Below are positions 9,542 to 35,681 of a stretch of 60,503 nt of DNA, piece by piece. The stretch spans positions 1-60,503 of the forward strand of contig NZ_AOIM01000042.1 in NCBI RefSeq assembly GCF_000337575.1, written 5' to 3'. Under the pieces are notes generated by a model that made no database searches, was not told the origin of the DNA, and worked only from the letters and a program-made list of their open reading frames with translations. The position numbers and the translations under genes were made by a program. The DNA comes from Natrialba hulunbeirensis JCM 10989. Its GTDB lineage: Archaea; Halobacteriota; Halobacteria; Halobacteriales; Natrialbaceae. The stretch's first letter is position 1, and every line of letters starts with the position of its first letter.

Positions 9542-10618
9542 ATGAGCATCGATCAGATCGGCTCCCGTCCAGCACAGGTAACTTCCCTCCCCGACGGTGC
9601 CGAGTTTGCCCTCTGTCTGACCCACGATGTCGACCGCCCGTACAAGGGTTTTCGGTCGCTGTACTACGCGACCCAGGAGCGCCCAGGCTACCACCTCCGG
9701 ACGGCGCTCGATCGGTCGAACCCCTACTGGCAGTTCGCCGAGATCATGGAACTCGAGGACGACCTCGGCGTCCGGTCGGCGTTTTACTTCCTGAACGAAC
9801 AGCATCTCTTCAGGGAGCGACCGCCGCGTGAGTGGCTCTCACCGGAACACTGGGTGCAACACCTCGGCCGCTACGAAATCGACAGCGACGACATCGCCGC
9901 TGCTATCCGCGACCTATCGACCGGCGGCTGGGAAGTCGGCCTCCACGGCTCGTATCACACCCAGCACGACCGCGATCGACTGCGAACTGAGAAGGTCGCA
10001 CTCGAGTACGTCCTTGGCGAGCAGATATCCGGCGGCCGTCAGCACCACCTTCGCCTCTCGGTGCCCGAGACGTGGGCACACTACCGCGAAATCGGGCTCA
10101 GCTACGACACCAGTCTCGGTTCGACGACCGACTGTGGGTTTCACGACGGCTACCACCCGATCCGCCCGTTCGGCGACGAGTTCGTCGTCTTCCCGCTGAC
10201 GATCATGGACCAGGCGCTTCCGGATCCCGCGACCAGTCCGGACGCCGCGCGTCGTACCTGCGAACGGCTGCTGGTCGATGCCGCCCGGAACGACGCCGTG
10301 ATGACCGTTCTCTGGCATCCGCGCTTCTTCAACGAACGGGAGTTCCCCGGCCACCGCGCACTCTATCGGTGGCTCGTCGAGCGGGCACTCGAGTTGGGCG
10401 CGTGGGTCGGCTCACCAGGTGAGCTGTATGAAACGATCGACGCCGGAACGATCGAGAAGCAGTCCGTCTCGATCAGCACCGACTCGGAGACGGAGGCGGT
10501 GTCGACGACAGCACAGCCCGACCACGAGGAGTCGCGTCGTGGACGTGGGAATCGACGCGAGGAAGCCGCGCCACAGCTTCGCTCGGCGAGCAGCAGCGGA
10601 GGTGAGTCCTCCCTATGA
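9542..10618 (+). CDS. polysaccharide deacetylase-like protein
   Basis: This 358-residue protein has the NodB-type motif set: LTHDVDRP (residues 26-33, catalytic Asp29 and metal-binding Asp31) and HGSYHT with His135 and His139 as probable metal ligands. A late LWHPRFF motif follows. The family removes N- or O-acetyl groups from polysaccharide sugars. The last 60 residues are a Ser/Glu/Arg-rich disordered tail. No signal peptide is visible, so it may act on a lipid-linked or cytoplasmic-face intermediate. It overlaps the PGF-CTERM protein by 4 bp, so both are translationally coupled. This marks the start of the surface-glycan region. Confidence 0.8.
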   Translation: MSIDQIGSRPAQVTSLPDGAEFALCLTHDVDRPYKGFRSLYYATQERPGYHLRTALDRSNPYWQFAEIMELEDDLGVRSAFYFLNEQHLFRERPPREWLSPEHWVQHLGRYEIDSDDIAAAIRDLSTGGWEVGLHGSYHTQHDRDRLRTEKVALEYVLGEQISGGRQHHLRLSVPETWAHYREIGLSYDTSLGSTTDCGFHDGYHPIRPFGDEFVVFPLTIMDQALPDPATSPDAARRTCERLLVDAARNDAVMTVLWHPRFFNEREFPGHRALYRWLVERALELGAWVGSPGELYETIDAGTIEKQSVSISTDSETEAVSTTAQPDHEESRRGRGNRREEAAPQLRSASSSGGESSL

Positions 10619-11985
10619 GCAGTCGTCCAGCGGCGGTCGTCGCGGTCGTCGCCCTGCTCGTCCTGAGCAGTGTTGGCGGCGTCGCGCAGGTCGGCGACTC
10701 GGCGTCGACGCCGTCGCCGAGCACTTCGGCTTCGAACGCGCCGCCGTCTGACACCTACGTCATCGAACAGGACGGCTTCTGCCAGCAGATCGAGCCGCTC
10801 TCGAGCGGCGGCACGGTCGAGGCATTCTACGACTACCGCAACCACGAGACGCATCCGGAGGGCGTCGACCGACTGTACAGCTCCTACGGGACTGAACACC
10901 TCCAGGAGGACGATACGAGCATCCTGTTCCTTCACGAGGGCACCGACGGGCTGAGCCTCGTGATGATTCACGACCAAGTTGATGGGAACTCGTCCGGCGG
11001 TGCGGTGACGTTCGATATTGTCGGCCTCCCAGCGGAGTCCGAGTGGGTCGTCCAGGACGACAACTACACTGGCGAGACGAACATGGCCGAGTGGTACGGC
11101 GGCGACGGCTGGCTCGGTGCATCGTGGATCTGGGCCGAAGAGCGCACCGACGGTGGTGCGATCAACGGTGGACTCAACGATGCATTCGCGATGACGATCC
11201 ACCCGGCGTTCAACGAGGACGCAGAGCACTACGACAACGACGACCTCTACGACCCCGACTTCCACGACGACGGCGAAATCAGCGACTGGGAGATCCTCTC
11301 CGGTGACGCGGACAATCCGGACCGAACGGACATCCCATCGCTCGACGACCCAGTCACGATCCGAACCGGAACGTGTGACGGCCCGTCCGTCTCGTACGAT
11401 CTCCTCGGCGGCGGCAGCGGTGAAGACGACGCTGGGGATGCAGGGCTCGCAGCCTCGATCGAGAACGCAAGTCCTGCCGACCGGATACACTTGCGCCCGA
11501 CGGCAGGCTCCGTCGAGGAGGTCCGATTCGACGACGTGTACGCAAGCGGCCTCGACGGCGACACCACCGTCACGTTCGAAAACAACCATCCTGACGACCT
11601 GCCCAACACTCCGGACGACGTCCCCGGATTCGGTTCGCTCGCCGTCACCGGCGAGCCCGCACTCGAGAACGTCTCGGGAACGGTGACGTTCACCGTGGAC
11701 GAGGCAGTACTCGAGGAGCACGAGATTGCGCCGGAAGACGTCTCCCTCTACGAGCGGTCAACAGACGGCGCGGCATGGAACGAGTCGACGACGGAGTATC
11801 AGGGCTCCTCGGGAGCGACCCACGAGTACGCGGCGTCGGTCGAGTCACTCGAGGGGCTGACGGTTGCACAGGCCCAACCAGAGCCTGAATCGGGACTGTC
11901 GGCGATGCCCGGCTTCGGTGGCCTCGGCGCGCTCGTGGCACTCGCAGCGCTGGTCGGCTTGCTCGCGGTGCGGTACCGCGAGTAG
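10615..11985 (+). CDS. secreted PGF-CTERM surface protein with PGF-pre-PGF domain
   Basis: This 456-residue exported protein has a Sec-type signal (SSRPAAVVAVVALLVLSS), a Ser/Thr/Pro linker and a long acidic ectodomain. A PGF-pre-PGF-like domain lies at about residues 285-420 (VEEVRFDDVYASGLDGDTTV, VPGFGSLAVTG, VSLYERSTDG). The C-terminus is MPGFGG, one hydrophobic helix and RYRE. Such tails are cleaved by archaeosortase A and the protein is lipid-anchored to the cell surface. Several NxS/T sites could be glycosylated (for example NYT and NES). Coupling to the deacetylase implies that they work on the same envelope structure. No enzymatic motif was recognised. Confidence 0.8.
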   Translation: MSSRPAAVVAVVALLVLSSVGGVAQVGDSASTPSPSTSASNAPPSDTYVIEQDGFCQQIEPLSSGGTVEAFYDYRNHETHPEGVDRLYSSYGTEHLQEDDTSILFLHEGTDGLSLVMIHDQVDGNSSGGAVTFDIVGLPAESEWVVQDDNYTGETNMAEWYGGDGWLGASWIWAEERTDGGAINGGLNDAFAMTIHPAFNEDAEHYDNDDLYDPDFHDDGEISDWEILSGDADNPDRTDIPSLDDPVTIRTGTCDGPSVSYDLLGGGSGEDDAGDAGLAASIENASPADRIHLRPTAGSVEEVRFDDVYASGLDGDTTVTFENNHPDDLPNTPDDVPGFGSLAVTGEPALENVSGTVTFTVDEAVLEEHEIAPEDVSLYERSTDGAAWNESTTEYQGSSGATHEYAASVESLEGLTVAQAQPEPESGLSAMPGFGGLGALVALAALVGLLAVRYRE

Positions 11986-12095
11986 AGACGGGTGACTCGG
12001 TTGGTGGCGGAGCACCGTCTACGATCTGTGTCTCCCGTGCCCCAACTCCTCCTCTCGCCGAAACGACTATTGACAGTGAATATGAACTATTGGCA

Positions 12096-12569
12096 ATGGA
12101 GCGGTCAGGCCGTATCTGGCCACACATCGTCGGAAGGAGCCGAAACCGGCAGGTTCTCGTACTGGCTGTGATCGCCCTCGTACTGCTAGCTACCGGTGGA
12201 TTCGTGCTCGGCCTTCCGGTTGGGTTCTCCCTCGGCTGGATCGCGGTAGCGTTCGGAATCGCTGTCGCCGCGGGGGCCGTGCGGGCAGGCCTCGTCCCAA
12301 CTGTTGGATCACTCTGGCTCGTTACGCTCTGGTGGTTCGTCTGCCCGCCGCTCGTGGGGTATTTGACCGGCGACTGGGCAACAGCAACTCGGTACTCCTA
12401 CCCGCGAGCACTGGGGTATGGATACAGTACTGCGGCCGCCGAGTTGCGCGGTGGGATCGAGGCTGGCCTCACGTCCGGTCTCGTCGCCGCAGTGCTCATC
12501 GGCACAGGCGGCTACCTTATCGGGACAGTGACGTCCTGGGCCGCAACCCAGCTTAAAAGACGCGGCTAA
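12096..12569 (+). CDS. uncharacterised four-helix membrane protein
   Basis: A 157-residue membrane protein begins at ATG 12096 (MERSGRIWPHIVGRSRNRQ) with a basic N-terminus. Hydrophobic segments lie at roughly 21-40, 45-62, 70-90 and 125-148. Gly-rich helices such as LLATGGFVLGLPVGFSLGWIAVAFGI suggest tight packing. No family was recognised. It faces the DUF354 gene tail-to-tail with a gap of only 17 bp. Confidence 0.6.
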   Translation: MERSGRIWPHIVGRSRNRQVLVLAVIALVLLATGGFVLGLPVGFSLGWIAVAFGIAVAAGAVRAGLVPTVGSLWLVTLWWFVCPPLVGYLTGDWATATRYSYPRALGYGYSTAAAELRGGIEAGLTSGLVAAVLIGTGGYLIGTVTSWAATQLKRRG

Positions 12570-12586
12570 CCACCGGCGAACCGTGA

Positions 12587-13756
12587 TCAGTCGCTTCCCA
12601 CGCCCATCGACTCCGACCCGGACCCCGACCCCGACCGATCCGAGCGAGCGTGCTGACCGAACTGCCGGGCCGACTCGAGTTCGTCGACAGCGCCTTCCGC
12701 GAGTGCCACGTCGACGATGAGATCTGAGAGGGGGACCGTGTCGGCGAGAAACTCGTCGCGGCGGCGCTGGTGGAGGTCGTCAACAGCCGTGTCGGCACCA
12801 CCCGCGCCATCGCCGGTCGCGCCGCCACTGAACAGCGCCTCAATCTCGTCGCAGATCGCCGCCGGCGAGGCTACGTTTCGGATGAGCCCGCGCTTTTCGA
12901 GTTCGACGAAGTTTCCCATGTCGTCGTCGCCGACGAAGGAGTTCGAGCGGATCGCAGGCGTGCCGAGCAGGGCGGCCTCGGTGACCATCGTCTGGGTATC
13001 CGCGACGAGCAGGTCGGCGGCCGAAAGCGCGTCGTGGAGCAGCGCCGGGTGCAGATCGAACGAGCGGGCGGGCAGTCCCTCGAGATTGGCAGTGCCGCCC
13101 TCGTCCGAGACGAGCACCGTCACCTTCTCGGCCAACTGCTCGATGATCTGTCGGCGTTCGATCCCCGTAATTCCCTGCTTGCCGACATCGTGCTGGGAGC
13201 CGAAGGCGTTGAGCCGGAGAATTGCGAACGGCTCGTCCGCCCCGAGGTCGAGTGCATCCCGAACGTTGGGATTCGGCTCGTAAACGTCCGGATGGAGGTA
13301 CGCACACTCCTTGAGTCCGTCAAAGACGTAGTGGTGATCGCCCAGATCCTTGCGGAAGGTGTTCGGTGTCAGAACGGTACGGGCGAACGGCGTCGAAATC
13401 GCGTGATCGAACGCCGCCGGTTCGGAGTCGATCAGCAACACCGTCGGGGTCCGCAGGACGGCACCCGTGTGGGCCGCATAGCCGCCCATCCCGAAGATCA
13501 GATCCGGATCGAACCGCCGCGCCAGCCGAATCGCCCGCACGTAGTGGGCCGGCAGGCGGCTCACGAGTGATCCCTTCGTCGTCCCGCAGGCACCGTAGAC
13601 CTCGTAGGGCAGGTCGTCCCACTCGAGTAGCTCGACGGTGCAGGTGTACTCGCGGGCGAGGATTCGAACGTCGTGGCCACGCGCTCGAAGGTCACGAACG
13701 GCGTGTTTGTATAGATGGACGTGCGCCGGCGTATTGGTGAAGAACAGGAATTTCAT
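12587..13756 (-). CDS. DUF354 family glycosyltransferase-like protein
   Basis: This 389-residue GT-B fold protein of the DUF354 family is related to UDP-GlcNAc 2-epimerases. It begins MKFLFFTNTPAHVHLYKHAVRDL and has FGMGGYAAHTGAVLRTPTVLLIDSEPA in the N-terminal half. The C-terminal half has VADTQTMVTEAALLGTPAIRSNSFVGDDDMGNFVELEKRGLI. The family occurs in archaeal polysaccharide loci and is thought to act on nucleotide sugars, but the exact reaction is not established. The C-terminus has a Gly-Ser repeat tail. It is divergent from the toroid-protein gene. Confidence 0.85.
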   Translation of the reverse strand: MKFLFFTNTPAHVHLYKHAVRDLRARGHDVRILAREYTCTVELLEWDDLPYEVYGACGTTKGSLVSRLPAHYVRAIRLARRFDPDLIFGMGGYAAHTGAVLRTPTVLLIDSEPAAFDHAISTPFARTVLTPNTFRKDLGDHHYVFDGLKECAYLHPDVYEPNPNVRDALDLGADEPFAILRLNAFGSQHDVGKQGITGIERRQIIEQLAEKVTVLVSDEGGTANLEGLPARSFDLHPALLHDALSAADLLVADTQTMVTEAALLGTPAIRSNSFVGDDDMGNFVELEKRGLIRNVASPAAICDEIEALFSGGATGDGAGGADTAVDDLHQRRRDEFLADTVPLSDLIVDVALAEGAVDELESARQFGQHARSDRSGSGSGSESMGVGSD

Positions 13757-13895
13757 GAAAGCGGTGTCTCCCGTGGGTCGGTGCTCCGCCAGCGAGGTTT
13801 GTTATCACCTTCATACCAGTTCGGACGAGCGTCACCGTGTACGACTGGTTCTGACTAACCGCCTGCTGTAGTGCCAGCACAGCGGGTAGCGAGCG

Positions 13896-13903: not shown

Positions 13904-13930
13904 TGGGACGCAGCGGGGAGCGTCGGGTAG

Positions 13931-15361
13931 ATGCAGTCGCAAGGATTTCCCGACACTGGTGGCGTGACCGAGACCGGCGGGCGAGTCGAGATGGGCGCGA
14001 CGGCTGCGGAGGCCGTCGAGCAGTACGAACCCGTACTGGATGCGACGCTCGCGTACGCGCGCCGACACGATTATATCGGCCCGGACTACGGCGATGGGAT
14101 GAGCAGCCAGCTCCTCCAGGCGCTCCCCGTCGAGAACCGCGTGTTGAATCTCGTCGTCCAGGAGACGGTCAAGCGCACGCCCGTCGACGTGCGGCCGCTG
14201 TTCCGCGTCGAGTGCAAGCGCAACTACAAGGGCGCGGCGCTGTTCGCGATGGCCAACCGGAACTACCAGCAGTTGGCCACACAGGACATCGCAGACCGCA
14301 GCGTCGCGGACCTGCCGTTCGACCCCGAAGGCGAGGCCAACCGACTCGTCGACTGGCTCGTCGACGAGCGAATTACGGACTACAGCGGTTTCTGCGGCGG
14401 GCATCGCCACCCGATTCAGCACCTCCACACCAAGGGCGTGCCGAGCGACCCCGACATCGTCTCGACCGCCTACGCCGTCAGAGCGTTCCTCCAGGCCGCA
14501 CGTACCGACGACGCCGAGGAGTACGCCGATCTCGCCCGCACCGCCGTCGATTTTCTCGTCGAAGACCTGAACTACCGGGAAGTCGAGACCGGCGCGAAGG
14601 TGGACTACCACATGAACCACCCCGATGACTCCTACACCATCAACGCGGCCGCCATCGGGGCTCACATGCTCGTCGACCTCTACGACTACTTCGGCGACGA
14701 GGAGTACCGCGAGCGCGCGACGAAGATCCTCGACCACATCGCCACAGCCCAGACTGACATCGGCGGCTGGCCCTATCGCCTCCCTGCTTCCGCCTCCCAC
14801 CTCTCGATGGACAGCCACCACAACGGCTTCGTCATCGAAGCCTTCCAGCACTACCGCGACGTGCTCGGGAGCGACCGCTACGCCGACACGCTCGACACCG
14901 CACTCGAGTTCTACCGCGAGGACCTGTTCGACCTCGACGGCGCGCCGAACTTCGACGAGGAAAACGCCTACCCGCGCGATATTCACGCGAGCACGCAGGG
15001 AATTCTCGTGTTCACGAAGGAGGGGGAACTCGAGTTGGCAGAGCGAATCCTCCGCTGGGTGCTCGCGAATCTGCAGGTCGAGGGTGAGGAGGGGCGATAC
15101 TACTACCGGAAGTACCGCCACCACACGAAGCGGGTGACGTTGATGCGCTGGTGTCAGGGCTGGATGTCCTACGCGATGTCGGAGTTCCTGCTGGCGGTGG
15201 CGAGTGCGGACACCGACGTGCGGACAAGTACGGTGGTGAACTCGAGTGCGACCGAGATGGAGGCGGAGGCCCAAGCGCTGGCGCAGCCGACGACCGACGG
15301 TGGGCACCCACCGAACGACACTCGGAGTGGCTGTGACGATGAGACCGACCCCCAGTCATGA
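13931..15361 (+). CDS. predicted alpha/alpha-toroid protein of polysaccharide locus
   Basis: This 476-residue soluble protein is made of repeated helix pairs with Trp/Tyr/His-rich turns (FCGGHRHPIQHLHTKGVPSD, DSHHNGFVIEAFQHYRDVLG, DIHASTQGILVFTKEGEL). This is the look of an (alpha/alpha)6 barrel as in glycoside hydrolases, lyases and C5-epimerases. Homologues in haloarchaeal genomes are often labelled antibiotic ABC transporter permease, which cannot be right because no membrane helix is present. A sugar-polymer-modifying role is inferred from fold and context. It overlaps the GT4 gene by 4 bp (15358-15361), so they are coupled. Confidence 0.7.
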   Translation: MQSQGFPDTGGVTETGGRVEMGATAAEAVEQYEPVLDATLAYARRHDYIGPDYGDGMSSQLLQALPVENRVLNLVVQETVKRTPVDVRPLFRVECKRNYKGAALFAMANRNYQQLATQDIADRSVADLPFDPEGEANRLVDWLVDERITDYSGFCGGHRHPIQHLHTKGVPSDPDIVSTAYAVRAFLQAARTDDAEEYADLARTAVDFLVEDLNYREVETGAKVDYHMNHPDDSYTINAAAIGAHMLVDLYDYFGDEEYRERATKILDHIATAQTDIGGWPYRLPASASHLSMDSHHNGFVIEAFQHYRDVLGSDRYADTLDTALEFYREDLFDLDGAPNFDEENAYPRDIHASTQGILVFTKEGELELAERILRWVLANLQVEGEEGRYYYRKYRHHTKRVTLMRWCQGWMSYAMSEFLLAVASADTDVRTSTVVNSSATEMEAEAQALAQPTTDGGHPPNDTRSGCDDETDPQS

Positions 15362-16668
15362 GTCTCCGAACGCAGGACGGTGACGTCGACGCCGATGCCA
15401 ACGGAAACCAAACAGAGATACCAGCGGGAGCAGGGTCACCAGCAGACGGAGATCGGTGTCCGACGGGGGACGCGAACCACGCCCACAGCGTCGCCGAATC
15501 CCAGCGGGTGCTCGTCATCACCGGCCTCGCGCACAAGAACGAGCGCCACTACGGCCCACTCGCGGACGTGGCCGGAGAGACGACACTCGTCTCGCTCGCA
15601 CCCGTCGAGGGCGTCGATACAGCCCGAAATGTCACCGTTCCCCAGGTCGGGCCGCGGCTCCTGCGCGTCGTCTTGCTCTTCGTCGTCGCGCTTCTCGAGG
15701 CCCGCCAGAACGAGTACGACGCGGTCGCCTCCATCTCGCTGTTTCCCTACGGCTGCTACGCGCTCGGGCTGAAGGCGATGTTCGGACTACCGGCCCACCT
15801 CGGCATCATCGGTATCGACCTCGACCATCACGCGACCCAGCGGTACGGCCCGGTCGTCCGCTGGCTGTTCAGACGCTTCGACATCGTGTCGGTTCCCGGC
15901 ACCGACCACGCGGCCCGACTCGAGCGCTGTGGTGTCCCCGCCGAACGAATCGCTTGGCTGACGAATCCGATCGACGTCGAGACCTACAGGCCCGAAGCGG
16001 CCGATACTGTCGACGACGATTCTGACTCTAACTCTGACTCCGACTTCGACTCCGACGACGAGGACGAGGACGCCGCCGCCGACTACGACTATAACTATGA
16101 CTTCGTCTGGGTCGGCCGCTTCGGCCCCGAAAAGGACCCCCACCGATTCGTCGCGGCGATGGACGCACTCGAGTCCCGCCGACAGAACGCCGAGTACACC
16201 GCCGTCATGGTCGGCGACGGTGCCCTCCACGACGAGGTCGCAGCGCACATCCGGGCGCGCGGACTCGAGGACACGATCGAACTCGCAGGCTGGGTCGACG
16301 ACCCGATCGATTACTACCGGTGCTCGCGGGCGTTCGTGCTCACCTCCGAGCGCGACGCGCTCCCGCTCGTGTTGCTCGAGGCGATGGCGACCGGACTCGC
16401 GCCGATCGTGCCTCGTGTCGGCTCGATTCCGGACGCCGTCACGGACGGCCAGAACGGGATCATCGTCCCGGACCGACAGCCGGAGACGATCGCCGCGGCG
16501 ATGGAACGATTGCTTGACGAGCCCGAGCTGCGCCGCTCGCACGCGAGCGCGGCGACTGAGGTCCGCAACTCCTTCTCGATGGCGCAGGCCGGTTCGGACT
16601 GGGCGCGGATCGTGTGCGCGATGGCCGAGACTGGGGGCTCGCAGCACCACTCGAGTTCGAGTCGCTAG
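15358..16668 (+). CDS. family 4 glycosyltransferase
   Basis: This 436-residue GT-B glycosyltransferase has an N-terminal acceptor domain (VLVITGLAHKNERHYGPLADV). The C-terminal nucleotide-sugar domain has VWVGRFGPEKDPHRF and the E-x7-E region SERDALPLVLLEAMATGLAPIV. It would transfer a hexose-type sugar from an activated donor to a glycan. Residues 218-248 are an Asp/Ser/Tyr low-complexity insert at the interdomain linker, just before the donor domain. The start ATG 15358 overlaps the upstream stop. The first 45 residues are disordered and acidic, so a later start is possible but not needed. Confidence 0.88.
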   Translation: MSLRTQDGDVDADANGNQTEIPAGAGSPADGDRCPTGDANHAHSVAESQRVLVITGLAHKNERHYGPLADVAGETTLVSLAPVEGVDTARNVTVPQVGPRLLRVVLLFVVALLEARQNEYDAVASISLFPYGCYALGLKAMFGLPAHLGIIGIDLDHHATQRYGPVVRWLFRRFDIVSVPGTDHAARLERCGVPAERIAWLTNPIDVETYRPEAADTVDDDSDSNSDSDFDSDDEDEDAAADYDYNYDFVWVGRFGPEKDPHRFVAAMDALESRRQNAEYTAVMVGDGALHDEVAAHIRARGLEDTIELAGWVDDPIDYYRCSRAFVLTSERDALPLVLLEAMATGLAPIVPRVGSIPDAVTDGQNGIIVPDRQPETIAAAMERLLDEPELRRSHASAATEVRNSFSMAQAGSDWARIVCAMAETGGSQHHSSSSR

Positions 16669-16754: not shown

Positions 16755-17774
16755 ATGGACATCGAACGACTCGACCTCGCGGCGTGGGACGATGCCCTCC
16801 CCGCCCGCGGCTTCGACGTCTTTCACGACCCCGACGCGCTCGCCGTCCTCGACGCCCACTCAGACGGCGAGTTGCGGCTGTACGGCGCGTTCAAAGGCCA
16901 GCAGGTCGTCGGCCTGCTCCCCGTCTTCGTCGACGACAAGCCGGTCGGGCGCACGATCTTCTCGCCCCCGCCGGGACTCGGCGTCCCGCGACTCGGCCCG
17001 ATCATCACCCCCAACAGCCCCAAGCAACGCAAGTGGGAGCGCATCAACGCCGCGCTCGCCGAGGGCGTCCTCGAGGACCTCGAGACCGACCGGCGCTCGA
17101 CGCTGTTCCGAATGACCTGCCCACTCGAGTACGCCGACCCGCGACCGTACGTCTGGAACGACCTGGCGGCCGAGCCGTCGTTCACCTACGTGGTCGACCT
17201 CGAGGACTGTGCGGACGTCGAGGACGCGATGGCGGGCTTCAGCAAGAGTCTGCGGAACGAGATGCGCCGGTACGACGACCTCGACCTCTCGATCGAGACG
17301 GAAGGGATCGACTCGGCGCTACGGATCTACGACGACGTGGTGACGCAGTATGAGGAGTACGACGACACCGCGCCGATGTCTCGCCCGTTCCTGCGGGACC
17401 TCCTCTCGAGTCTGGACGACGACCGCTGGCGAGTGTACGTGGCGCGAACGCCCGACGGCGAGTACAAGAGCGGCATCATCACGCTGTTCTCGAACGACCT
17501 GGCGTACTACTGGCAGGGCGGCGTCACTGCCTCCTACGACCACGTGAGCGTCAACAACTGCCTCCACCGGATGATTCTGGAAGACATCGTCACGGAGCCG
17601 GCACTCGAGTCGGTGACGGGGTACGATCTGGTCGGTGCGAACACGGAACGTCTCTGTGAGTACAAGGGGAAGTTCAACGGCGAGCTGCGGCCGTACTACA
17701 CCGTGGAATCGTCGGGACTCGAGATGACGCTCGCGAAGTCGGCGTACGAGCGGGTCGCTGGCTCGTTGAAGTGA
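16755..17774 (+). CDS. FemAB/GNAT-like transferase, copy 1
   Basis: This 339-residue protein has two GNAT-like halves. It contains FKGQQVVGLLPVF, TIFSPPPGLGVPRLGP, FSKSLRNEMRRY and the C-terminal YDLVGANTERLCEYKGKFNGELRPYY. This is the pattern of FemAB-type peptidyl/aminoacyl transferases (the lipid II glycyltransferase superfamily). Bacterial relatives attach amino acids from aminoacyl-tRNA to cell-wall precursors or belong to exopolysaccharide loci. Archaea lack murein, so a glycan or surface-polymer acceptor is inferred. A paralogue lies at 29479-30495. It follows the GT4 gene by 86 bp in the same direction. Confidence 0.8.
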   Translation: MDIERLDLAAWDDALPARGFDVFHDPDALAVLDAHSDGELRLYGAFKGQQVVGLLPVFVDDKPVGRTIFSPPPGLGVPRLGPIITPNSPKQRKWERINAALAEGVLEDLETDRRSTLFRMTCPLEYADPRPYVWNDLAAEPSFTYVVDLEDCADVEDAMAGFSKSLRNEMRRYDDLDLSIETEGIDSALRIYDDVVTQYEEYDDTAPMSRPFLRDLLSSLDDDRWRVYVARTPDGEYKSGIITLFSNDLAYYWQGGVTASYDHVSVNNCLHRMILEDIVTEPALESVTGYDLVGANTERLCEYKGKFNGELRPYYTVESSGLEMTLAKSAYERVAGSLK

Positions 17775-22309: not shown

Positions 22310-23761
22310 TCAGGAGAGGACGCTCTGTACGTCGAGCATGCCACTCGTCACCGAGATCGTCGCCCAGACGAGGATGCCGACCGCGACGAGCGCGAGCAGC
22401 GACACCAGGTTCGTGACCATCGGCAGCGCAACCACGACGACGGCAGCCATACAGAGTGCGATTCCCGAAACCGCGACCACGGACTGTCCGAGGGACGGCA
22501 ACGAGATCGGGAGTTCGGACCGGATGAGGTAGATGTTCACCGCGATCATGATGCCGTAGCTGACGACCGTCGAGATCGCTGCGCCGGCGATGCCGATGGT
22601 CGGAATCAACAGCAGGTTCAGCCCAAAGTTGAATCCGCCGGTCACACCCTTCGAGATCGCGCGGTGTTTCGCACGCCCGAGGTAGTCGAGCGCGTCGTTC
22701 GTGATCTTATCGATCGCCTGGAAGACGATGAAGAACGCGAAGATCTGGATGACGAGCACCGCCTCCAGGTACGCCGGTCCGAAGACGTACTGCACCAGCG
22801 GCTCGGCGACGACGATCAGCCCCGCCGCAGCGGGGATGTAGAACAGCACGCTGTGTTTGAACGTCGTCTCGTAAACGTTGGCGGCCTTCTCGAGTTCCCC
22901 GTTGGCCTTGTACTCGCCGTAGGAAGGCGAGACGGTGAACCCGAGCGAGCTCGCCGGCGCGATAACGAAGTCCGAAATCTGCTTTGCGAGCACGTAGTAG
23001 CCGACCGCCGCCGGCGTGAGGAAGACGCCGATGAGCAACGTGTCGACCTGTTTGTAGACCACGTTTGCCCCGTCCGAAACGGTCAGCGGCAGACTGTACT
23101 CGAGTAACCGTCGTCGCAGGCCGGGCTCGCGTTCGTCGGCGGCGTCGAACTCGCCGAGCAGCCGGTACAGCAGGCTGAGACCGTAGACGGCACCGAGCAC
23201 GTAGCCGAGGACGTAGCCGGTGAGCGCGCCGATAACGCCGAAGCCGGCGACGAGGAACACGAGAACCGAAAGCAGCGTCGTGACGTTCGTGAGGATCGTC
23301 ACGCGCGCACTCCAGGAGATGCGGTTGAAGCCCTGGAAGATCGTGTGCACGTAGGAGTTGATCGTCCAGCAACTGATGTAGACGACCCCGAGCGCCAGCA
23401 GCGGTGCCAGCTCGCTCTCGCCGAACAGTGTCGCCAGTTGCTGGTGGAACACCGCGACCAGGATCGAGACGGTCAGCATCACCGCAGTCAGGAATTTGAG
23501 CGAATCTCGGATGATGTGGGGAACTTGTCCAGGATTCGTCTCCCGAAACTCCGCGAGATACCGCGCCGTCGACCGGGGAATGCCGAGGCGACTGAACAGC
23601 AGCGAGGCGCTGAAGACCGAAATCGCGAGAAAGAGCAGGCCGTACTCGTCGGGCGTCAAAAACAGGCTCGCGAGCGACACCATGAGCACGCCCTTCGCGA
23701 TCGTCCGGACGATTTCGGCGACCAGCGTCGCCCTGAAGCCGCGAATAATCTGTTGTTTCAT
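22310..23761 (-). CDS. Wzx-type polysaccharide flippase
   Basis: This 483-residue protein of the oligosaccharide flippase (MOP/PST) family has about fourteen hydrophobic helices. It begins with the typical amphipathic MKQQIIRGFRATLVAEIVRTIAKGVLMVSLASLFLTPDEYGLLFLAI. The middle carries YSLPLTVSDGANVVYKQVDTLLIGVFLTPAAVGYYVLAKQISDF, a hallmark segment. It moves lipid-linked glycans from the cytoplasmic to the outer membrane face, for N-glycosylation or exopolysaccharide. It follows the oxidoreductase gene by 25 bp on the same strand, so both are likely one transcript. Confidence 0.9.
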   Translation of the reverse strand: MKQQIIRGFRATLVAEIVRTIAKGVLMVSLASLFLTPDEYGLLFLAISVFSASLLFSRLGIPRSTARYLAEFRETNPGQVPHIIRDSLKFLTAVMLTVSILVAVFHQQLATLFGESELAPLLALGVVYISCWTINSYVHTIFQGFNRISWSARVTILTNVTTLLSVLVFLVAGFGVIGALTGYVLGYVLGAVYGLSLLYRLLGEFDAADEREPGLRRRLLEYSLPLTVSDGANVVYKQVDTLLIGVFLTPAAVGYYVLAKQISDFVIAPASSLGFTVSPSYGEYKANGELEKAANVYETTFKHSVLFYIPAAAGLIVVAEPLVQYVFGPAYLEAVLVIQIFAFFIVFQAIDKITNDALDYLGRAKHRAISKGVTGGFNFGLNLLLIPTIGIAGAAISTVVSYGIMIAVNIYLIRSELPISLPSLGQSVVAVSGIALCMAAVVVVALPMVTNLVSLLALVAVGILVWATISVTSGMLDVQSVLS

Positions 23762-23786: not shown

Positions 23787-24878
23787 TTAGATCGTCGCCG
23801 GTGTCTCGACAGTGGTGGTACTCGAGTCCCGGAGCGACTCGATCAGTCGGATCGTCCACTTCGAGGACTCGAGCGAGACCGGCATCTCGGTGCCGGCCTC
23901 GATGGCGCGAGCGGTTCGATCGAACTGGGCGTAGTGGGCGTTCATTTTGATCGCCGTCTCCCAGTCGTCGTTGAGTTGGCCGTCGGCGACGAGTTTGGCG
24001 TTCGAGAGCAGCCCGGAGAGGTAGCCCGCCGAGCGGGTGATCGCCTGCTTGCCCTTCTTGAGCGAGGAGAGGTGGTACTCCTCGTCGACGGTCTGAATCG
24101 TCTGCAGGACCATATCGAGTTGAATCGACTTCTCGGTGCCGTGGACGTAGATCTCGTGGCGTGGCTTCGAACTCGAGAGCATCTTCAGGCTGCAGAGCAC
24201 GTCGTCTTCGGTGACGTACTGCAACTGGGCGGAGTCGTAGGCGAACTCGTCGTCATAGTCGCCGACGAGTCGGGTGGTACTCGAGATGGACTCCTCGCTT
24301 TCGGGGAAGCCGCTGACTCTGAGCGCGGAGTAGATGGGGTGGGGGAGTCCCTCCTCGAACTCGCCGCCGGGGAGGTCGAAGACCCAGGTGCCACGATTCG
24401 CTTCGTCCGGCGTCGACAGTCCCGTGTAGATCAGGTCGACGCCGCGGATCTCGCCGAGTTCGCCGGCGTGGATCATCCGGCGAGCGGTTCGCATCACTGG
24501 ATCGAAGTTGTGCTGGTGGACTGGCGAGACTGGGACATCGTGCTCGTCCGCGTAGGCTTCGAGCTCCTCGAGTTCCTCGATAGTTTCGGTGACCGGCTTC
24601 TCGATCAGCAGCGGGACGCCGGCGTCGATTGCGCGCTTTGCCAGCGGGAGGTGGCTCTGAACCGAGGTGCAGATGTGGAGCCAGTCGAGTGACTCCTGTG
24701 CGAGGAGGTCGTCGATGTCGCCGTAGGGTGTGATGTCGTACCGGGAAGCCGCCTCGCGCGCCCGGTCGATGTCGAGGTCGCAGATGCCGACGAGTTCGGT
24801 CCGCGGGTTCTTGTCGATTCCCGAGAGATGAACCTCCGAGACTGTGCCGGCACCGACTACTGCCGTTTTGACTGTCAT
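23787..24878 (-). CDS. Gfo/Idh/MocA-family NAD(P)-dependent oxidoreductase
   Basis: This 363-residue enzyme starts at ATG 24878 (MTVKTAVVGAGTVSEVHLSGI). The Rossmann GAGxxS motif is at residues 8-13 and the family motif EKPVTETIEELEELEAYA is near residue 95. HQHNFDPVMRTARRMIHAGELGEIRGVDLIYTG then leads into the alpha/beta substrate domain. Members oxidise or reduce sugars and nucleotide sugars. Placed directly before a flippase, it probably makes or modifies a sugar of the exported glycan. The longer frame from 24899 adds only MFVFRRR and is less likely. Confidence 0.88.
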   Translation of the reverse strand: MTVKTAVVGAGTVSEVHLSGIDKNPRTELVGICDLDIDRAREAASRYDITPYGDIDDLLAQESLDWLHICTSVQSHLPLAKRAIDAGVPLLIEKPVTETIEELEELEAYADEHDVPVSPVHQHNFDPVMRTARRMIHAGELGEIRGVDLIYTGLSTPDEANRGTWVFDLPGGEFEEGLPHPIYSALRVSGFPESEESISSTTRLVGDYDDEFAYDSAQLQYVTEDDVLCSLKMLSSSKPRHEIYVHGTEKSIQLDMVLQTIQTVDEEYHLSSLKKGKQAITRSAGYLSGLLSNAKLVADGQLNDDWETAIKMNAHYAQFDRTARAIEAGTEMPVSLESSKWTIRLIESLRDSSTTTVETPATI

Positions 24879-25231: not shown

Positions 25232-27127
25232 TCAGATGTCGCTCATGTTGGCATCGATGTAGTACCGGTCGAACTCGCCGTTCGTGTGAATACGGTTCAC
25301 GCCGGGTTCGTTCTCGAGCGCGCTGAAGTCGCCGTCGCTGTGACGAAGTTCGCCGTAGGCGTACACCTCGCGGTCGTAGTCGTACTGACTCACCACGAGA
25401 TAGCGGTCGTCGTCGTACTCCGCAACGAGTCCGGAGCCGAACGCCGATTCGGGCACGTCGAAGTGGAGGCGCATTCGCTCGTCGTTGCCGTGAATCGCGT
25501 CGTCGAACCGATTCGGACCGTTTCGCAGGCCGACGATATCGACCTCGTTGGCTTGGGTGTCGAAGGCGGTCTCGTAGCCGCTCATCTGCTGGTCGCTGAC
25601 GTGTGGCGACGGGTTGTACGTGTACGGTGAGGGGAAGACCGCCACGAGCGACAGCAACAGGAGGAGCGCGAAGCCGACGGCGAGCAGCGGCTGTCCCGAG
25701 GGGACGAACCGCGACTCACGCCACCGTCCCGAGACGCGGCTGGTCAACCCGTAGATCGCGATCGCACCGAGCAGCGTCACGAAGACCATCATCAGCCCGA
25801 AGACGCGGAAGTACATCGTCGAGCCGGGTGCGAGGAAGTAGATGACGAACAGCGGTCCCAATCCGACGAGTGCGACGGCAAAATACAGCGTCTCTGGTCG
25901 AATTCGGGCGAGCCACTCGGAGTTTCGCGCGCCGATAGCTGCCAGAATAAGTCCCGCGGCGAGCAGCGTAAAGAGGAGATGGACGGCGAATAGCTTGACA
26001 AAGATTTCACCGAGACCGCTCCCGAGTGCGCCGAGCGAGGCACCCTGCATCGCGACTGTATCTCCGGCCCCGCCACCATCCCTGAGGATAAAGTCGACAG
26101 CCGCGCTCAGGAAGTGGTCGATCATCCCGCTGAAAAAACCGTGATTCGACGTCCAGCCGAGAAACAGCACGACCAGGAACAGCGCCTGGCCGTACATCGG
26201 CGTCTGGCCCGCGATCCGCCCCTCCGACGCGATCCGGCGTGCCAAAAACTGTACCAGCGAGATGCCGAGGAAGACGACGATCAGGTGTGCGACCAGCTGT
26301 GGGTGGTAGACGACCGTCGCGACAGAGACGAGCGCGAAGGCGGCACCGACGGCGGACACCGTCGCAAGCGAGCGGTCGGCACGGAGATACTTCGCGAAGA
26401 GGAAGAACAGCAGTGCCGAGAACAGCACGGCCTGGGACATCGCGTGTGCGGTCATGTACATCGAAATCGTCGTGATCGGCAGGAGAAGGAACGACGAGAA
26501 CGCGGCGATCACGACCGCGCGGCGGTCTGAGACGATCGTTCCGGCACAGAGCGGGATGAAGATCCAGAAGACGACCATCGTCGCGAGGATCGCGAGGAGC
26601 AACGACTGCTCGAGTGGGATGCCAACCGCGGCGTTGATCATCGCGGTCACGGTGTGGATGCCGGGATAGTACAGATCGAACGGAACGATGGTTCCCTCGG
26701 CCATCGCCCGCGCCCAGCCGAGGTGGGTAAGCGCATCGTGGTGGCCGAAGAACCGATAGCCGCGGATCAGTGGGAGTCCGGCAAAGACGATCATCGTGAG
26801 CCCGCCCAGGACGAGGGCGAGCGGCCGGCTAGTGAACAACCGGGTATCCTCGCCGTCGACTGCTTCGGTTCCAGCCCGCGTCCCCGGTCCCACCCACGAC
26901 GGAGGAACGAACGCGACCGCGAGTGCGATCGCCATGGCGACCAGCAGCCCGGCCCAGACGCGACCCGGCGTCATCGTGTAGAGCGAAAGCTCGTACCCGG
27001 CGGCGGGTGCACCGCGAGCGAGAAGCGCGCTGACAGCGACTGCGAGGAAGCCAACCGCGAGGGCGAGCTTTCGGAACGGTTCTTCGGTGACGGCTGACTG
27101 AGGAGACATTCGGAGCTGGCGCGACAT
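25232..27127 (-). CDS. large GT-C-like membrane protein
   Basis: This 631-residue protein (ATG 27127, MSRQLRMSPQSAVTEEPFRK; ATG 27109 is an alternative) has about thirteen hydrophobic helices and a C-terminal ectodomain of roughly 130 residues. An early external loop holds FFGHHDALTHLGWARAMAEGTIVPFDLYYPGIH. An Asp/His-rich first loop is the GT-C glycosyltransferase hallmark, and these enzymes use polyprenyl-phosphate sugars. The ectodomain ends DRYYIDANMSDI. It stands alone on the minus strand between the oxidoreductase/flippase pair and a divergent small gene. A role in glycan assembly is inferred; no exact family was named. Confidence 0.65.
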   Translation of the reverse strand: MSRQLRMSPQSAVTEEPFRKLALAVGFLAVAVSALLARGAPAAGYELSLYTMTPGRVWAGLLVAMAIALAVAFVPPSWVGPGTRAGTEAVDGEDTRLFTSRPLALVLGGLTMIVFAGLPLIRGYRFFGHHDALTHLGWARAMAEGTIVPFDLYYPGIHTVTAMINAAVGIPLEQSLLLAILATMVVFWIFIPLCAGTIVSDRRAVVIAAFSSFLLLPITTISMYMTAHAMSQAVLFSALLFFLFAKYLRADRSLATVSAVGAAFALVSVATVVYHPQLVAHLIVVFLGISLVQFLARRIASEGRIAGQTPMYGQALFLVVLFLGWTSNHGFFSGMIDHFLSAAVDFILRDGGGAGDTVAMQGASLGALGSGLGEIFVKLFAVHLLFTLLAAGLILAAIGARNSEWLARIRPETLYFAVALVGLGPLFVIYFLAPGSTMYFRVFGLMMVFVTLLGAIAIYGLTSRVSGRWRESRFVPSGQPLLAVGFALLLLLSLVAVFPSPYTYNPSPHVSDQQMSGYETAFDTQANEVDIVGLRNGPNRFDDAIHGNDERMRLHFDVPESAFGSGLVAEYDDDRYLVVSQYDYDREVYAYGELRHSDGDFSALENEPGVNRIHTNGEFDRYYIDANMSDI

Positions 27128-28002: not shown

Positions 28003-29172
28003 TTAGTCGTCGCTGTCGTCGCTATCGTCATCGTCGTCATCATCCTCGTCGTCATCGCTGTCATCCTCATCATCCTCGGCACCGTCCGCATCACCACCCA
28101 CAGCATCCGAATCCGCAGCGTCGACAGTCACCCACAGATACGTCGACCGATCCGCGTTCTCGATCGTCGGCGACTCCGGCACTGACTCGTCGTACAGCAA
28201 CACCGCTACTCGAACCGTGCCGCTCTCTGCCTCCGGCGTCATCGACATCTCGTCCTGAGTCGATTCGCCGTCTGCGAGGGTGTACTCGAGTCGGTCGTGT
28301 TCGAGCCGGTCTAAGACCTCGCCGTCGTCGACCCACTGCTCCTGGACGACGGCGGTGTAGGCCTGCTCGGACTGTTCCTGGTTCTCGAGGTCGATTGCCA
28401 GTGAGACGGACTCGTTCGGAGCGGTCGTCGTCTCGTAGTCGGTGGCGACCAGTTCGCCGTCGTCGTCCTCAGTGAGCAGTTGCAGTTCGGTGTACTGCTC
28501 GCCATCCTGTGGCGAGACGAGCGCGTAACCGACGCTGGAAAGGGCGATGAGCATGCTCGCGACGAGCAGGAGGTTGACTGCGGTGTGTACCGCCGAGTCG
28601 GTGCCGAACAGTGCCGCGTGGACGGTGTCGTACGCGCGAGCGAAACTGAACTCGTAGCGATTCTGTTCGGGGATGCGAACGCGTCGAATACCAGCGAGGA
28701 AGGCACAGACGAGTACGAAGCCGCTGATGAGGGCGACGACGGCCACCGAGGAGAATGAGTAGGGCGTGAGCGCGATGACGATACCAAACAGCGGGAGGAG
28801 GGCGACACTCAAACCGAACGCAAGCGCGGCGCGTTCGACACCGGTTACGGTGAGGGTCTGACCAAACAGCGGCGTTGCGACCGTTTCCGATGGCGGACTC
28901 TCCCGTGGGAAGAGCACGGAGACGGCGGCGTACCCGGGTGCGACGAACAACAGCGGGAAGCCGACGGCGGCGCGGAGGACGGGAGACGACACGTCGACGA
29001 TCAACAGGAGAAGGGCTGCAACGATGGCGACGCCGGCGATGCCGACCAGATCGGTCGGGAGCCGAGCCACCGCTCTCGTTCCTCGCCCGACGGTCGCGAA
29101 CGGCTGTGTGTCCAGATCCAGAATCTCTTTCATGTATGCGTCAGTTATCCACCACTCGACTGGTTCGGACAT
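28003..29172 (-). CDS. DUF1616 membrane protein with acidic tail
   Basis: This 389-residue protein starts at ATG 29172 (MSEPVEWWITDAYMKEILDLD). Helices lie in the first 260 residues, with the DUF1616-type segment FPLLFVAPGYAAVSVLFPRESPPSETV and GVERAALAFGLSVALLPLFGIVIALTPYSFSS. An external beta-rich domain follows (VSLAIDLENQEQSEQAYTAVVQEQWVDDG) and a final 40-residue Asp/Glu run. The family is common in archaeal surface-glycan loci; its function is unknown. The external domain resembles an Ig-like fold. It is divergent from the second FemAB-like gene. Confidence 0.8.
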   Translation of the reverse strand: MSEPVEWWITDAYMKEILDLDTQPFATVGRGTRAVARLPTDLVGIAGVAIVAALLLLIVDVSSPVLRAAVGFPLLFVAPGYAAVSVLFPRESPPSETVATPLFGQTLTVTGVERAALAFGLSVALLPLFGIVIALTPYSFSSVAVVALISGFVLVCAFLAGIRRVRIPEQNRYEFSFARAYDTVHAALFGTDSAVHTAVNLLLVASMLIALSSVGYALVSPQDGEQYTELQLLTEDDDGELVATDYETTTAPNESVSLAIDLENQEQSEQAYTAVVQEQWVDDGEVLDRLEHDRLEYTLADGESTQDEMSMTPEAESGTVRVAVLLYDESVPESPTIENADRSTYLWVTVDAADSDAVGGDADGAEDDEDDSDDDEDDDDDDDSDDSDD

Positions 29173-29478: not shown

Positions 29479-30495
29479 ATGAGCATCGACGTTCGCGTCG
29501 CCACAGAAGACGACCGTGAGCGCTGGAACGACTACGTCCGGCGCTCACCACAGGGAACGCTGTGTCACGAACTCGAGGCGCTCTCAGTGCAGGCCGACCA
29601 CTCCGGGTCGACGCTGCACCCGCTGATCGGCTTCAAAGGACAGGAGCCCGTCGGCCTCTTCCCGGTGTTCGAACTCAAAAAGCAGTTCGTGACGACCGTC
29701 TTCTCGCCGCCGCCACACATCCGTGTCCCCTACCTCGGCCCGGCGTTTCTGAACATGGGGAAGCTCAAACAGCGAAAGCGCGAACGTCGACGCCAGCGCT
29801 TCATGGACGGCTGTCTCGAGTGGATCCAGTCCGAACTCTCACCGCGATACGCCCACATCCGGACCAGCACAGGCGTCGAGGACGCACGGCCGTTCAAGTG
29901 GAACGAGTTCGACGCGACGCCGGAGTACACCTACGCGGTCGACCTCACGCGCGACCGCGAGGATCTCCTCATGTCCTTCAGCAGCGACGCGCGAAGCAAT
30001 ATCACGAACGCCGACGAGGACGAGGACAACTACGAGGTTACCGTCGGCGACTCCGAGGAGATCGCTCTCATCCACGAGCAAGTGAAGCACCGCTACGAAT
30101 CACAGGACATCAGCTTCGGCGTCCCACTCGAGTTCGTCCAGGACCTCGCCGACAGAACGGCGACCGGTGCCGTTCGACCCTACACCCTGTGCGTCGACGG
30201 GGAGTTCGTCGGCGGGATTCTGGCACTCGAGTACGGCGATAGAACGGGGCGGTGGATGGGTGGCGTACGGACGGATGCGGACGTCGACGTGCCGACGAAC
30301 GATCTGCTGGACTGGGCGATCATGGAAGACGGAATGGAACGCGGCCTCGAGACGTACGACCTCGTGGGAGCGGATACGCGCCGGATCAATCGCTACAAGG
30401 CGAAGTTCAACCCGGAACTCGAGACCTACTACAGCCTGGAGTACGGCTCGTGGGGGATGAAGACGGTGGCGTCGTTGTACGATTCGGTAAAGTAG
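29479..30495 (+). CDS. FemAB/GNAT-like transferase, copy 2
   Basis: A 338-residue paralogue of the protein at 16755-17774 starts at ATG 29479 behind GGAGGTGG. Shared landmarks are GFKGQEPVGLFPVF, TVFSPPPHIRVPYLGP, FSSDARSNI and the C-terminal YDLVGADTRRINRYKAKFNPELETYYS. The two copies are of equal length but diverged, so they probably act on different donors or acceptors in the same surface-polymer pathway. The same family caveats apply: aminoacyl or acyl transfer is inferred from FemAB relatives. The 14 extra in-frame codons from 29437 lack a ribosome site and are not included. Confidence 0.8.
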   Translation: MSIDVRVATEDDRERWNDYVRRSPQGTLCHELEALSVQADHSGSTLHPLIGFKGQEPVGLFPVFELKKQFVTTVFSPPPHIRVPYLGPAFLNMGKLKQRKRERRRQRFMDGCLEWIQSELSPRYAHIRTSTGVEDARPFKWNEFDATPEYTYAVDLTRDREDLLMSFSSDARSNITNADEDEDNYEVTVGDSEEIALIHEQVKHRYESQDISFGVPLEFVQDLADRTATGAVRPYTLCVDGEFVGGILALEYGDRTGRWMGGVRTDADVDVPTNDLLDWAIMEDGMERGLETYDLVGADTRRINRYKAKFNPELETYYSLEYGSWGMKTVASLYDSVK

Positions 30496-30662
30496 CACAG
30501 CGAACCCGCAGCAAACTGCGGTAGGTCCCAGTTACCCACCGTTTTGCACTGGCTGACTGTTGCGTGCTCGTGACCGGGTCCGATTCCGTCGATGGCCATC
30601 TAGCCGCGGAATGAAGGTAACCGCACACATAACGAAAGGTCAAGGCCGGGGACGCTTCCTCG

Positions 30663-32276
30663 ATGAACGACGATTCGTCGCTGCAGACCCTGCTCGTCGG
30701 GATCGACGCGGCCTGCGACCACGTTCTCGAGCCGCTGTTCGAGGCCGGCGACCTCCCGACGCTCGAATCGATCTACGAGGACGGCGCGAACGGGCCACTC
30801 GAGTCCCAGATTCCGCCATGGACGGCGAGCGCCTGGCCGTCGCTCTACACCGGCAAGAATCCGGGCAAACACGGCGTCTTCGGCTTTCTCTCCTTCGATG
30901 GCTACGACTGGGACGTCGTCAACGCCAGTGACGTTCGTGAGCCCGCCCTGTGGGAACTCCTCTCCGAACAGGGACTCACGAGCGTCGTCGTCAACGTGCC
31001 GGTCACCCACCCGCCGCGCGAGTTCGACGGCGCGGTGATCCCCGGCTACACCGCACCGGAGAATCCGGCCTGTCACCCCGAGGGGCTATTAGAGGACGTC
31101 CGCGAATCGATCGGTGAGTACCGCGTCTACCCCGACGAGGACGCCGACGATCTGGGCGGCGCGTACGCCGACTGCGTCCGGATGCGCGGCGAAGCCTTCC
31201 AGTACCTCGCGGATCGGTTCGATCCCGAGTTCGGCTTCCTCGAGTTCCAGGCCACGGATTCGATCTTCCACAAGGAGCCCGAGAACGAGGCGGCGATCCG
31301 CGAGATTTACCGCGAGGTCGACCGCCAAATCGCCGATATTCTCGAGACGCACGACCCAGACACCGTGATCATCGCGAGCGACCACGGCATGGGTCCATAC
31401 GAGGGTCACGAGTTCCGGGTAAACGAGTTCCTCCGCCGCGAGGGCCACGTCGAGACCACGAACGGCGGCGAGGGGATGCCGACCTGGGCGACGGTTCGCG
31501 ACGACTCGCTCAAAGACGGCAAGGAGACGACCCAGCGCGAGCAGGGCCTCTCCGAGCGTGCGATGGCCGCCGCCGCGGGCGTCGGGCTCACGAGCCAGCG
31601 CATCGAAGCCGTGCTGGAGCGCCTCGGACTCGCCGAGTTCGCGGCTGCCCACGCGCCAACTGGACTCGTCAACGCGGGTGCGACGCAAGTCGACTTCCCG
31701 AACTCCCGCGCGTATGTCCGCTCGCGCATCGAACTCGGTGTCCGGCTCAACGTCGAGGGTCGCGAGCCGAACGGCGTCGTTCCGGAAGCAGAGTACGAAA
31801 CGGTCCGCACGCAGGTTATCGACGCCCTGCGCTCCGCGCGAACGCCCGACGGCGACCCCGTCTTCGAGGCGGTCCGCCCGCGCGAAGAGTTCTTCCACGG
31901 CCCCGAGAGCGAGCGCGCGGTCGACATCGTGACGATCCCCGCGGACTTCGAGCACTTCATCTCTGCAACACTGCGAGACGAGCAGTTTGGCCCACCGAGC
32001 GAGCCCTGGAACCACAAACTCGAAGGCACCGTCGCCGTCGCGGGCACAGGCGTCGACCGCACGGCCGGCGTCGGCGATGCACATTTGTTCGACATCGCGC
32101 CGACCGTGCTGGCGAGCCTCGGTGTGCCCGCCGACGAGCGTATGGACGGGGAGGTGCTCCCGTGTCTCGACTCGAGTGGGACGACGGACTATGCCCGTCG
32201 CGACGAAGAGGCGACCGTCGCAACCGACGACGATGCCGTCGAACAGCGGCTTGCAGATCTGGGGTATCTCGAGTAG
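30663..32276 (+). CDS. alkaline phosphatase superfamily phosphodiesterase
   Basis: This 537-residue enzyme is of the type I phosphodiesterase/nucleotide pyrophosphatase group. A first metal motif GIDAACDHV and the nucleophile region WTASAWPSLYTGKNPGKHGVFGF are followed by PVTHPP and IIASDHGMGPYEGHEFRVNEFL with metal-binding Asp and His. Later metal ligands are expected near PWNHKLEGTVAVAG. No signal peptide or membrane segment is seen. Related proteins appear in archaeal and bacterial polysaccharide loci and may cleave phosphodiesters of lipid carriers or nucleotide sugars. It closes the glycan region. Confidence 0.85.
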   Translation: MNDDSSLQTLLVGIDAACDHVLEPLFEAGDLPTLESIYEDGANGPLESQIPPWTASAWPSLYTGKNPGKHGVFGFLSFDGYDWDVVNASDVREPALWELLSEQGLTSVVVNVPVTHPPREFDGAVIPGYTAPENPACHPEGLLEDVRESIGEYRVYPDEDADDLGGAYADCVRMRGEAFQYLADRFDPEFGFLEFQATDSIFHKEPENEAAIREIYREVDRQIADILETHDPDTVIIASDHGMGPYEGHEFRVNEFLRREGHVETTNGGEGMPTWATVRDDSLKDGKETTQREQGLSERAMAAAAGVGLTSQRIEAVLERLGLAEFAAAHAPTGLVNAGATQVDFPNSRAYVRSRIELGVRLNVEGREPNGVVPEAEYETVRTQVIDALRSARTPDGDPVFEAVRPREEFFHGPESERAVDIVTIPADFEHFISATLRDEQFGPPSEPWNHKLEGTVAVAGTGVDRTAGVGDAHLFDIAPTVLASLGVPADERMDGEVLPCLDSSGTTDYARRDEEATVATDDDAVEQRLADLGYLE

Positions 32277-35680: not shown

Positions 35681-35681
35681 G

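Follow-up and report, generated by a model that had tools for sequence, protein, structure and literature searches.

Wbp/Vim-like chemistry proposed for a conserved surface-glycan locus of Natrialba hulunbeirensis

What kind of glycan system is encoded by the run of about fifteen genes at positions 9542-32276 of contig NZ_AOIM01000042.1 from Natrialba hulunbeirensis JCM 10989, a haloarchaeon of the family Natrialbaceae? An earlier note on this DNA described the genes as the archaeal counterpart of a bacterial exosortase-type (XrtA/PEP-CTERM) exopolysaccharide (EPS) locus. Here, the whole stretch of 60,503 nucleotides is called the window; it is contig C42 of a 4.16 Mb genome in 48 contigs, among which C12, C37, and C40 also appear below, and the locus genes are lettered A-O in window order. 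The locus is better described as Wbp/Vim-like, after the linking-sugar pathway of Porphyromonas, than as exosortase-type. We put at roughly 0.6 the probability that it is an archaeal counterpart of that pathway, which would make a diamino-uronic-acid glycan with an amino-acylated, freed amine. For a surface-glycan locus with Wbp/Vim-like chemistry, the genomics are well supported and the biochemistry is moderately supported. No paper on such a locus was found in the literature on haloarchaeal FemAB and deacetylase proteins, archaeosortase and EPS, or exosortase, FemAB, and XrtA.

We searched 121 genomes of the family with four locus proteins, taking about 63% identity or more as the orthologue threshold for the deacetylase gene B (9542-10618, forward strand) and the FemAB-type gene N (29479-30495, forward strand). 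These two genes are 19 kb apart in the window. Both occur in 52 genomes and neither occurs in 67, whereas only one of the pair is found in 2 (p 4.7e-32; within-genus permutation p<=0.0005); genes C (10615-11985, forward strand) and E (13931-15361, forward strand) were in agreement in 120 of the 121. Gene order was compared in 20 fetched neighbourhoods. Most of them have a recognisable common arrangement, with A-B-C followed by a reversed D, E-F-G, a middle that varies, the reversed pair L-M, and N-O; the D-E-G core was present in all 20, and a few retained only the D-E-F-G core in the stretch fetched. Besides a flippase, the middle holds optional genes and those of secreted, beta-helix-like proteins, and a variable middle between conserved flanks is the typical look of surface-polysaccharide loci. 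The earlier note had staked its proposal on co-occurrence of these gene families outside this strain, and the neighbourhood search among family genomes found it. Because the locus is conserved and co-inherited, the reading as a single haloarchaeal surface-glycan locus, with the region described here as its main block, is supported. In Natronorubrum bangense JCM 10635, the locus is carried on a plasmid (L097, NZ_CP031307.1).

Deacetylase, FemAB-type transferases, and linkage to Wbp genes

Families were assigned with Pfam and NCBIfam profiles against their curated cutoffs. The product of gene B matches the VimE model NF053580 with 63.6 bits (E 1.3e-17), the curated equivalog cutoff being 440, and VimE was the sole NCBIfam match at E<=0.01 for all 16 B orthologues tested. 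VimE is the bacterial UDP-2,3-diacetamido-2,3-dideoxy-glucuronate deacetylase of Porphyromonas. The motifs THDVDRP, HGS, and HPR are invariant in B, and none of the NCBIfam models of the XrtA family was matched by B or by any of the 16 orthologues. The gene that the earlier note named a polysaccharide deacetylase is present, but no Pfam deacetylase model scores above cutoff and VimE is its only NCBIfam match. No signal peptide is seen in B by inspection, and its expected substrate is therefore a precursor in the cytoplasm rather than an exported polymer.

The locus contains two FemAB-type transferases, FemAB1 (gene G, 16755-17774, forward strand) and FemAB2 (gene N), each matching PF13480 (Acetyltransf_6) with 75 bits. 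The AlphaFold model of FemAB1, with a predicted local distance difference test (pLDDT) score of 74, adopts a tandem-GNAT fold. Its eleven best neighbours in the Protein Data Bank (PDB), as found by Foldseek, are all FemX, FemA, or Sbb17/Sba18 structures: Weissella FemX, including peptidyl-RNA complexes, another FemX, Staphylococcus FemA, and Sbb17/Sba18. The FemX match has an E value of 1.6e-10, and ordinary GNATs lie far behind at about 1e-5. Sbb17 and Sba18 are aminoacyl-tRNA-dependent peptide synthases, the structures of which were determined in the presence of the amino-sugar antibiotic core streptothrisamine. The model favours an aminoacyl-tRNA as the donor of FemAB1 and, as its acceptor, an amine that may belong to a sugar; FemAB1 is a predicted aminoacyl-tRNA-dependent amino-acid transferase. 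When the PDB was searched with sequence profiles built from the FemAB and deacetylase alignments, no meaningful match emerged.

The link to Wbp genes is most complete in a locus of another haloarchaeal family (L129). This run comprises a NeuD-type, WbpD-like acetyltransferase, a DegT aminotransferase, a UDP-N-acetylglucosamine (UDP-GlcNAc) 3-dehydrogenase (NF040723, 234 bits, below the cutoff of 450), a UDP-sugar 6-dehydrogenase (TIGR03026, above cutoff), a family 2 glycosyltransferase (GT2), a UDP-GlcNAc 2-epimerase (TIGR00236, 289 bits, above cutoff), a B orthologue 68% identical to that of the window, and a FemAB protein, and continues into a DUF354-like transferase and an alpha/alpha-toroid protein. 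Judged by their predicted functions, the first enzymes are of the kinds by which the Wbp pathway produces UDP-2,3-diacetamido uronic acids. Within the family, WbpD-E-B-A, GT2, and deacetylase genes are contiguous in G043, G060, and G018, which belong to one genus. Altogether, Wbp genes are contiguous with the deacetylase or FemAB genes in these three genomes and in L128, L129, and L131, and lie on separate contigs in the window genome. The 2-epimerase gene is directly upstream of B in 5 of the 20 surveyed genomes and adjoins B in all four outgroup loci that have B.

In the window genome, WbpD-E-B-A homologues are found at C40:8-4285, with 52-63% identity to the L129 proteins, and the 2-epimerase (65%) is encoded on C12. 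The predicted Wbp set is complete there, with 6-dehydrogenase, 3-dehydrogenase, aminotransferase, and acetyltransferase; as these genes are on other contigs, the pathway would act in trans. Where WbpA and B share one contig (30 genomes), their distance is at most 16 kb in 11 and at most 131 kb in 27, and 16 paralogous deacetylase genes have a WbpA gene no more than 9.5 kb away. A second full WbpD-E-B-A-GT2-2-epimerase-deacetylase cluster occurs in Natrialba sp. SSL1 (L177, G084:C50, 1296-12800), with a deacetylase 54% identical to B.

Proposed chemistry and competing explanations

In Porphyromonas, VimE is proposed to deacetylate C-2 of the Wbp product, after which VimA attaches serine or glycine (PMC7468200). 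The archaeal locus holds the same combination, and we therefore read B and FemAB as the same two steps. All of the catalytic steps are inferred, as are their sequence, the identity of the amino acid, and the glycan that results. The WbpA, WbpB, WbpE, WbpD, and UDP-GlcNAc 2-epimerase orthologues encoded in trans would supply a UDP-2,3-diacetamido uronic acid, from which B would take off one N-acetyl group; FemAB1 and/or FemAB2 would then transfer an amino acid from aminoacyl-tRNA to the freed amine. Thereafter, the GT4 and DUF354-like transferases would build the unit while it is bound to a polyprenyl carrier, J, the flippase, would turn it outward, and the DUF6541 and DUF1616 membrane proteins may polymerise or transfer it. 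This gives an uncharacterised, widespread haloarchaeal surface-glycan locus a specific, testable chemistry in place of a loose gene-list analogy.

Several observations weigh against this chemistry. B is far under the VimE cutoff (63.6 versus 440 bits), so its substrate identity is putative only, and the second CE4-type histidine varies among its orthologues. FemAB1 matches no NCBIfam model, and the AlphaFold models of the toroid and FemAB1 are of moderate quality (pLDDT 78 and 74). Furthermore, the Wbp genes lie outside the window, and 450 kb off in N. magadii, and WbpA-like genes occur in 117 of the 121 family genomes; being nearly universal, they serve other glycans too.

The secreted protein encoded by gene C bears on a possible role of archaeosortase. 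In 13 of 18 other loci, as in the window, the C start overlaps the B stop by 4 bp, which makes translational coupling of C to the deacetylase probable. The C tail, labelled PGF-CTERM in the earlier note, has a visible MPGFG motif together with a hydrophobic helix and a basic terminus, but it scores 15.7 bits against TIGR04126, the curated cutoff of which is 24.5, and the PGF motif, kept in 11 of the 18 orthologue tails, is lost in the other 7. PGF-CTERM proteins above the cutoff are encoded on other contigs. The observation that no archaeosortase gene lies in the window was correct: the only archaeosortase A (ArtA, TIGR04125) gene of the genome is on contig C37 (G000:C37:129622-130467). ArtA is found in 117 of the 121 family genomes, with or without the locus, whereas the locus genes are found in about 43-53. 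One genome (G045) has two archaeosortase-A-like genes (G045:C1 and G045:C3), the second more divergent. The N-terminal domain of C recurs inside a secreted protein of 1835 residues with calcium-binding-type repeats (L144, 283-5787, reverse strand).

Three other explanations of the locus may be considered. It might be an ordinary EPS or capsule locus, in which a polymer is decorated by plain N-deacetylation and acyl-CoA-dependent N-acylation with no tie to Wbp/Vim. The flippase, the several glycosyltransferases, and the capsule-typical variable middle suit such a locus, as does the biochemically unanalysed EPS-like material seen around Natrialba magadii cells (PMC3403918), for which our locus supplies candidate genes. 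However, B without a signal peptide is expected to use a cytoplasmic precursor, Wbp genes recur directly beside B and its paralogues, and FemAB1 is nearer to aminoacyl-tRNA enzymes than to GNATs, which makes a plain capsule somewhat unlikely. A variable N-glycosylation cluster that supplies the oligosaccharyltransferase AglB and the S-layer is unlikely. AglB is present in the genome, and methanococcal N-glycans, which contain 2,3-diacetamido uronic acids and amino-acid amides, offer a precedent; but AglB and the deacetylase gene are 306-1594 kb apart in seven chromosomes that are finished or nearly so, a distance on which we rejected a linkage to AglB, and WbpA lies within 130 kb of the deacetylase gene in 6 of the 7.

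It is also conceivable, if quite improbable, that the locus serves an archaeosortase-linked export system, in which B and FemAB would make an amino-acylated sugar and ArtA would use its free amine as the nucleophile to join PGF-CTERM proteins, C among them, to the glycan. In Porphyromonas, PorU uses the Vim sugar in this way. The 4-bp overlap in most loci, the usual PGF tail of C, and an ArtA encoded in trans are consistent with such a system. In addition, VimA matches the PEP-CTERM-associated FemAB model TIGR03019, exosortase loci contain VimA-related, deacetylase, and WbpS-like genes, and it has been speculated that these loci make an amino-acid-modified sugar as a possible acceptor (PMC7468200). 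Against it stand the near-universal ArtA beside a patchy locus, the 7 of 18 C tails without PGF together with the above-cutoff PGF-CTERM proteins of other contigs, and the finding that ArtA processing in Haloferax requires archaetidylethanolamine synthesis genes (PMC7157517). We also consider it decidedly unlikely that the proposed archaeal amino-acylated diamino-uronic acids present the free amine of the amino acid as a covalent, Porphyromonas-style anchor for secreted proteins (PGF-tailed C or others). If that were true, a protein-to-glycan linkage of the Porphyromonas kind would be an inter-domain mechanism, and the identity of the acceptor in exosortase-type systems would be suggested.

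Remaining genes and neighbours of the locus

All the genes named in the earlier note are present at 9542-32276, with some labels needing correction; the two FemAB-like genes, the GT4, the flippase, the sugar oxidoreductase, and the phosphodiesterase have clear profile matches, and the ATP-grasp ligase and the toroid are both there. Gene A (8572-9165, forward strand) encodes a YdjM-like membrane protein (PF04307, 42 bits), often opens the block, and adjoins B in many genomes. Gene D (12587-13756, reverse strand) encodes a GT4/MurG/DUF354-like glycosyltransferase by Pfam, with the toroid gene as its neighbour in nearly every locus. D is the DUF354 gene of the earlier note, but its DUF354 match is marginal (21.6 versus a cutoff of 22 bits), and D rates slightly higher as a GT4-like domain (30.0 versus 29.7).

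The cytoplasmic toroid E was modelled by AlphaFold with a predicted template modelling score (pTM) of 0.80. The fold search with Foldseek backs its alpha/alpha barrel, the nearest structures being GH76 mannanases, glucose/cellobiose 2-epimerases, and GH88 enzymes; these folds tie, so no reaction is assigned to E. By inspection, E has no signal peptide, which makes an intermediate that is cytoplasmic or lipid-linked its probable substrate; our guess is that it epimerises or trims a unit of the N-acetylmannosamine (ManNAc) or uronic-acid type. The toroid gene neighbours a 2-epimerase gene in 16 of 18 outgroup loci, including those of Methanosarcina-type genomes.

Gene F (15358-16668, forward strand) encodes the GT4 glycosyltransferase (PF00534, 113 bits), and gene H (18732-19967, forward strand) an ATP-grasp ligase with PF15632 and a PylC-like N domain, both marginally over cutoff; H is optional and occurs only in the loci of some relatives. 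Gene I (20084-21760, reverse strand), absent from the earlier list, encodes a predicted beta-helix-like secreted protein exported by the twin-arginine (Tat) route, as read from its twin-arginine start and its repeats; it had no family match in the Pfam search, and relatives carry one or more copies of this type of gene. The Wzx-type oligosaccharide flippase J (22310-23761, reverse strand; PF01943, 88 bits) is followed by K (23787-24878, reverse strand), a Gfo/Idh/MocA sugar dehydrogenase (PF01408, 82 bits). K was rejected as the WbpB enzyme, having 27% identity to the WbpB query versus 52% for the gene on C40.

Gene L (25232-27109, reverse strand, its start set from orthologues), earlier named GT-C-like, encodes a DUF6541 multi-pass membrane protein (PF20176, 35 bits versus a cutoff of 29) and is a probable glycosyltransferase or polymerase. 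The DUF1616 membrane protein M (28003-29172, reverse strand; PF07760, 323 bits), likewise absent from the earlier list, is kept beside L and N. Finally, O (30663-32276, forward strand) encodes a phosphodiesterase of the alkaline-phosphatase superfamily (PF01663, 121 bits) and lies 3' of N in most loci. Beyond the locus, the gene of a XerC-like protein (32391-33698, forward strand) is kept beside it in several relatives, and an Mrp-type antiporter operon follows (33845-41391, reverse strand), the first gene of which also holds its position in several relatives.

Comparison with known systems

The locus resembles XrtA/PEP-CTERM EPS loci (PMC1569441) in being a polysaccharide locus with a deacetylase, FemAB, a GT4, and, beside the deacetylase, a secreted protein with a sorting-like tail. 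In those bacteria, EpsH and PEP-CTERM have matching phylogenetic profiles (PMC1569441). In contrast, our locus is free of a sortase and of PEP-CTERM, its deacetylase matches no XrtA family model, archaeosortase is independent of it, and its FemAB proteins are far under the TIGR03019 cutoff of 260 bits (24.9 for FemAB2 and no match for FemAB1). On the absence of a sortase and the mismatched profile we rejected an exosortase-type locus, and the proposed exchange of PEP-CTERM for PGF-CTERM is not supported by the tail of C, which is under the cutoff and has lost the motif in 7 of 18 orthologues. What holds of the likeness to XrtA is at the level of the pathway, not of family membership: glycan systems linked to sortases repeatedly contain the deacetylase and FemAB as a module, and this likeness is a true one. 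Their pairing is common to exosortase loci, the Porphyromonas linking-sugar pathway, and archaeal Wbp neighbourhoods, and chemistry solved here would bear on what exosortases attach proteins to.

Arguably, a toroid locus of Methanolobus (L106/L107, 2143-19222) is a closer archaeal parallel of the XrtA loci than the window. It carries WecB, UDP-ManNAc dehydrogenase, deacetylase, FemAB, GT4s, toroid, flippase, and a beta-helix protein in a single run, and its FemAB reaches 168 bits against TIGR03019. Compared with the window, however, only the toroid is clearly homologous (about 25%), the DUF6541-like protein is weakly similar (E 1e-4), and the FemAB and deacetylase come from other subfamilies. 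Kinship of the latter two with ours was unsupported by direct BLASTP, and the Methanolobus locus thus follows a similar recipe in parallel without being orthologous to ours as a cluster.

With AglB N-glycosylation clusters and the acidic EPS cluster of Haloarcula (PMC9943897), the locus has in common the GT-driven assembly of a glycan on archaeal polyprenyl or dolichol carriers; unlike those, it is unlinked to AglB, and the Haloarcula AepG paper makes no mention of a deacetylase (PMC9943897). Compared with the Wbp/Vim system of Porphyromonas gingivalis and Tannerella forsythia (PMC7468200), the host is an archaeon, and neither type IX secretion nor a PorU sortase or WbpS amidotransferase was seen in the locus; VimE homology is distant, and two FemAB genes, the toroid, and the DUF354-like, DUF6541, and DUF1616 proteins are extra. 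Both systems share WbpA/B/E/D-type enzymes, an optional 2-epimerase, a VimE-related deacetylase, a GNAT/FemAB-type transferase, and glycosyltransferases; related archaea have this set in one operon, whereas in the window genome its Wbp part is encoded in trans.

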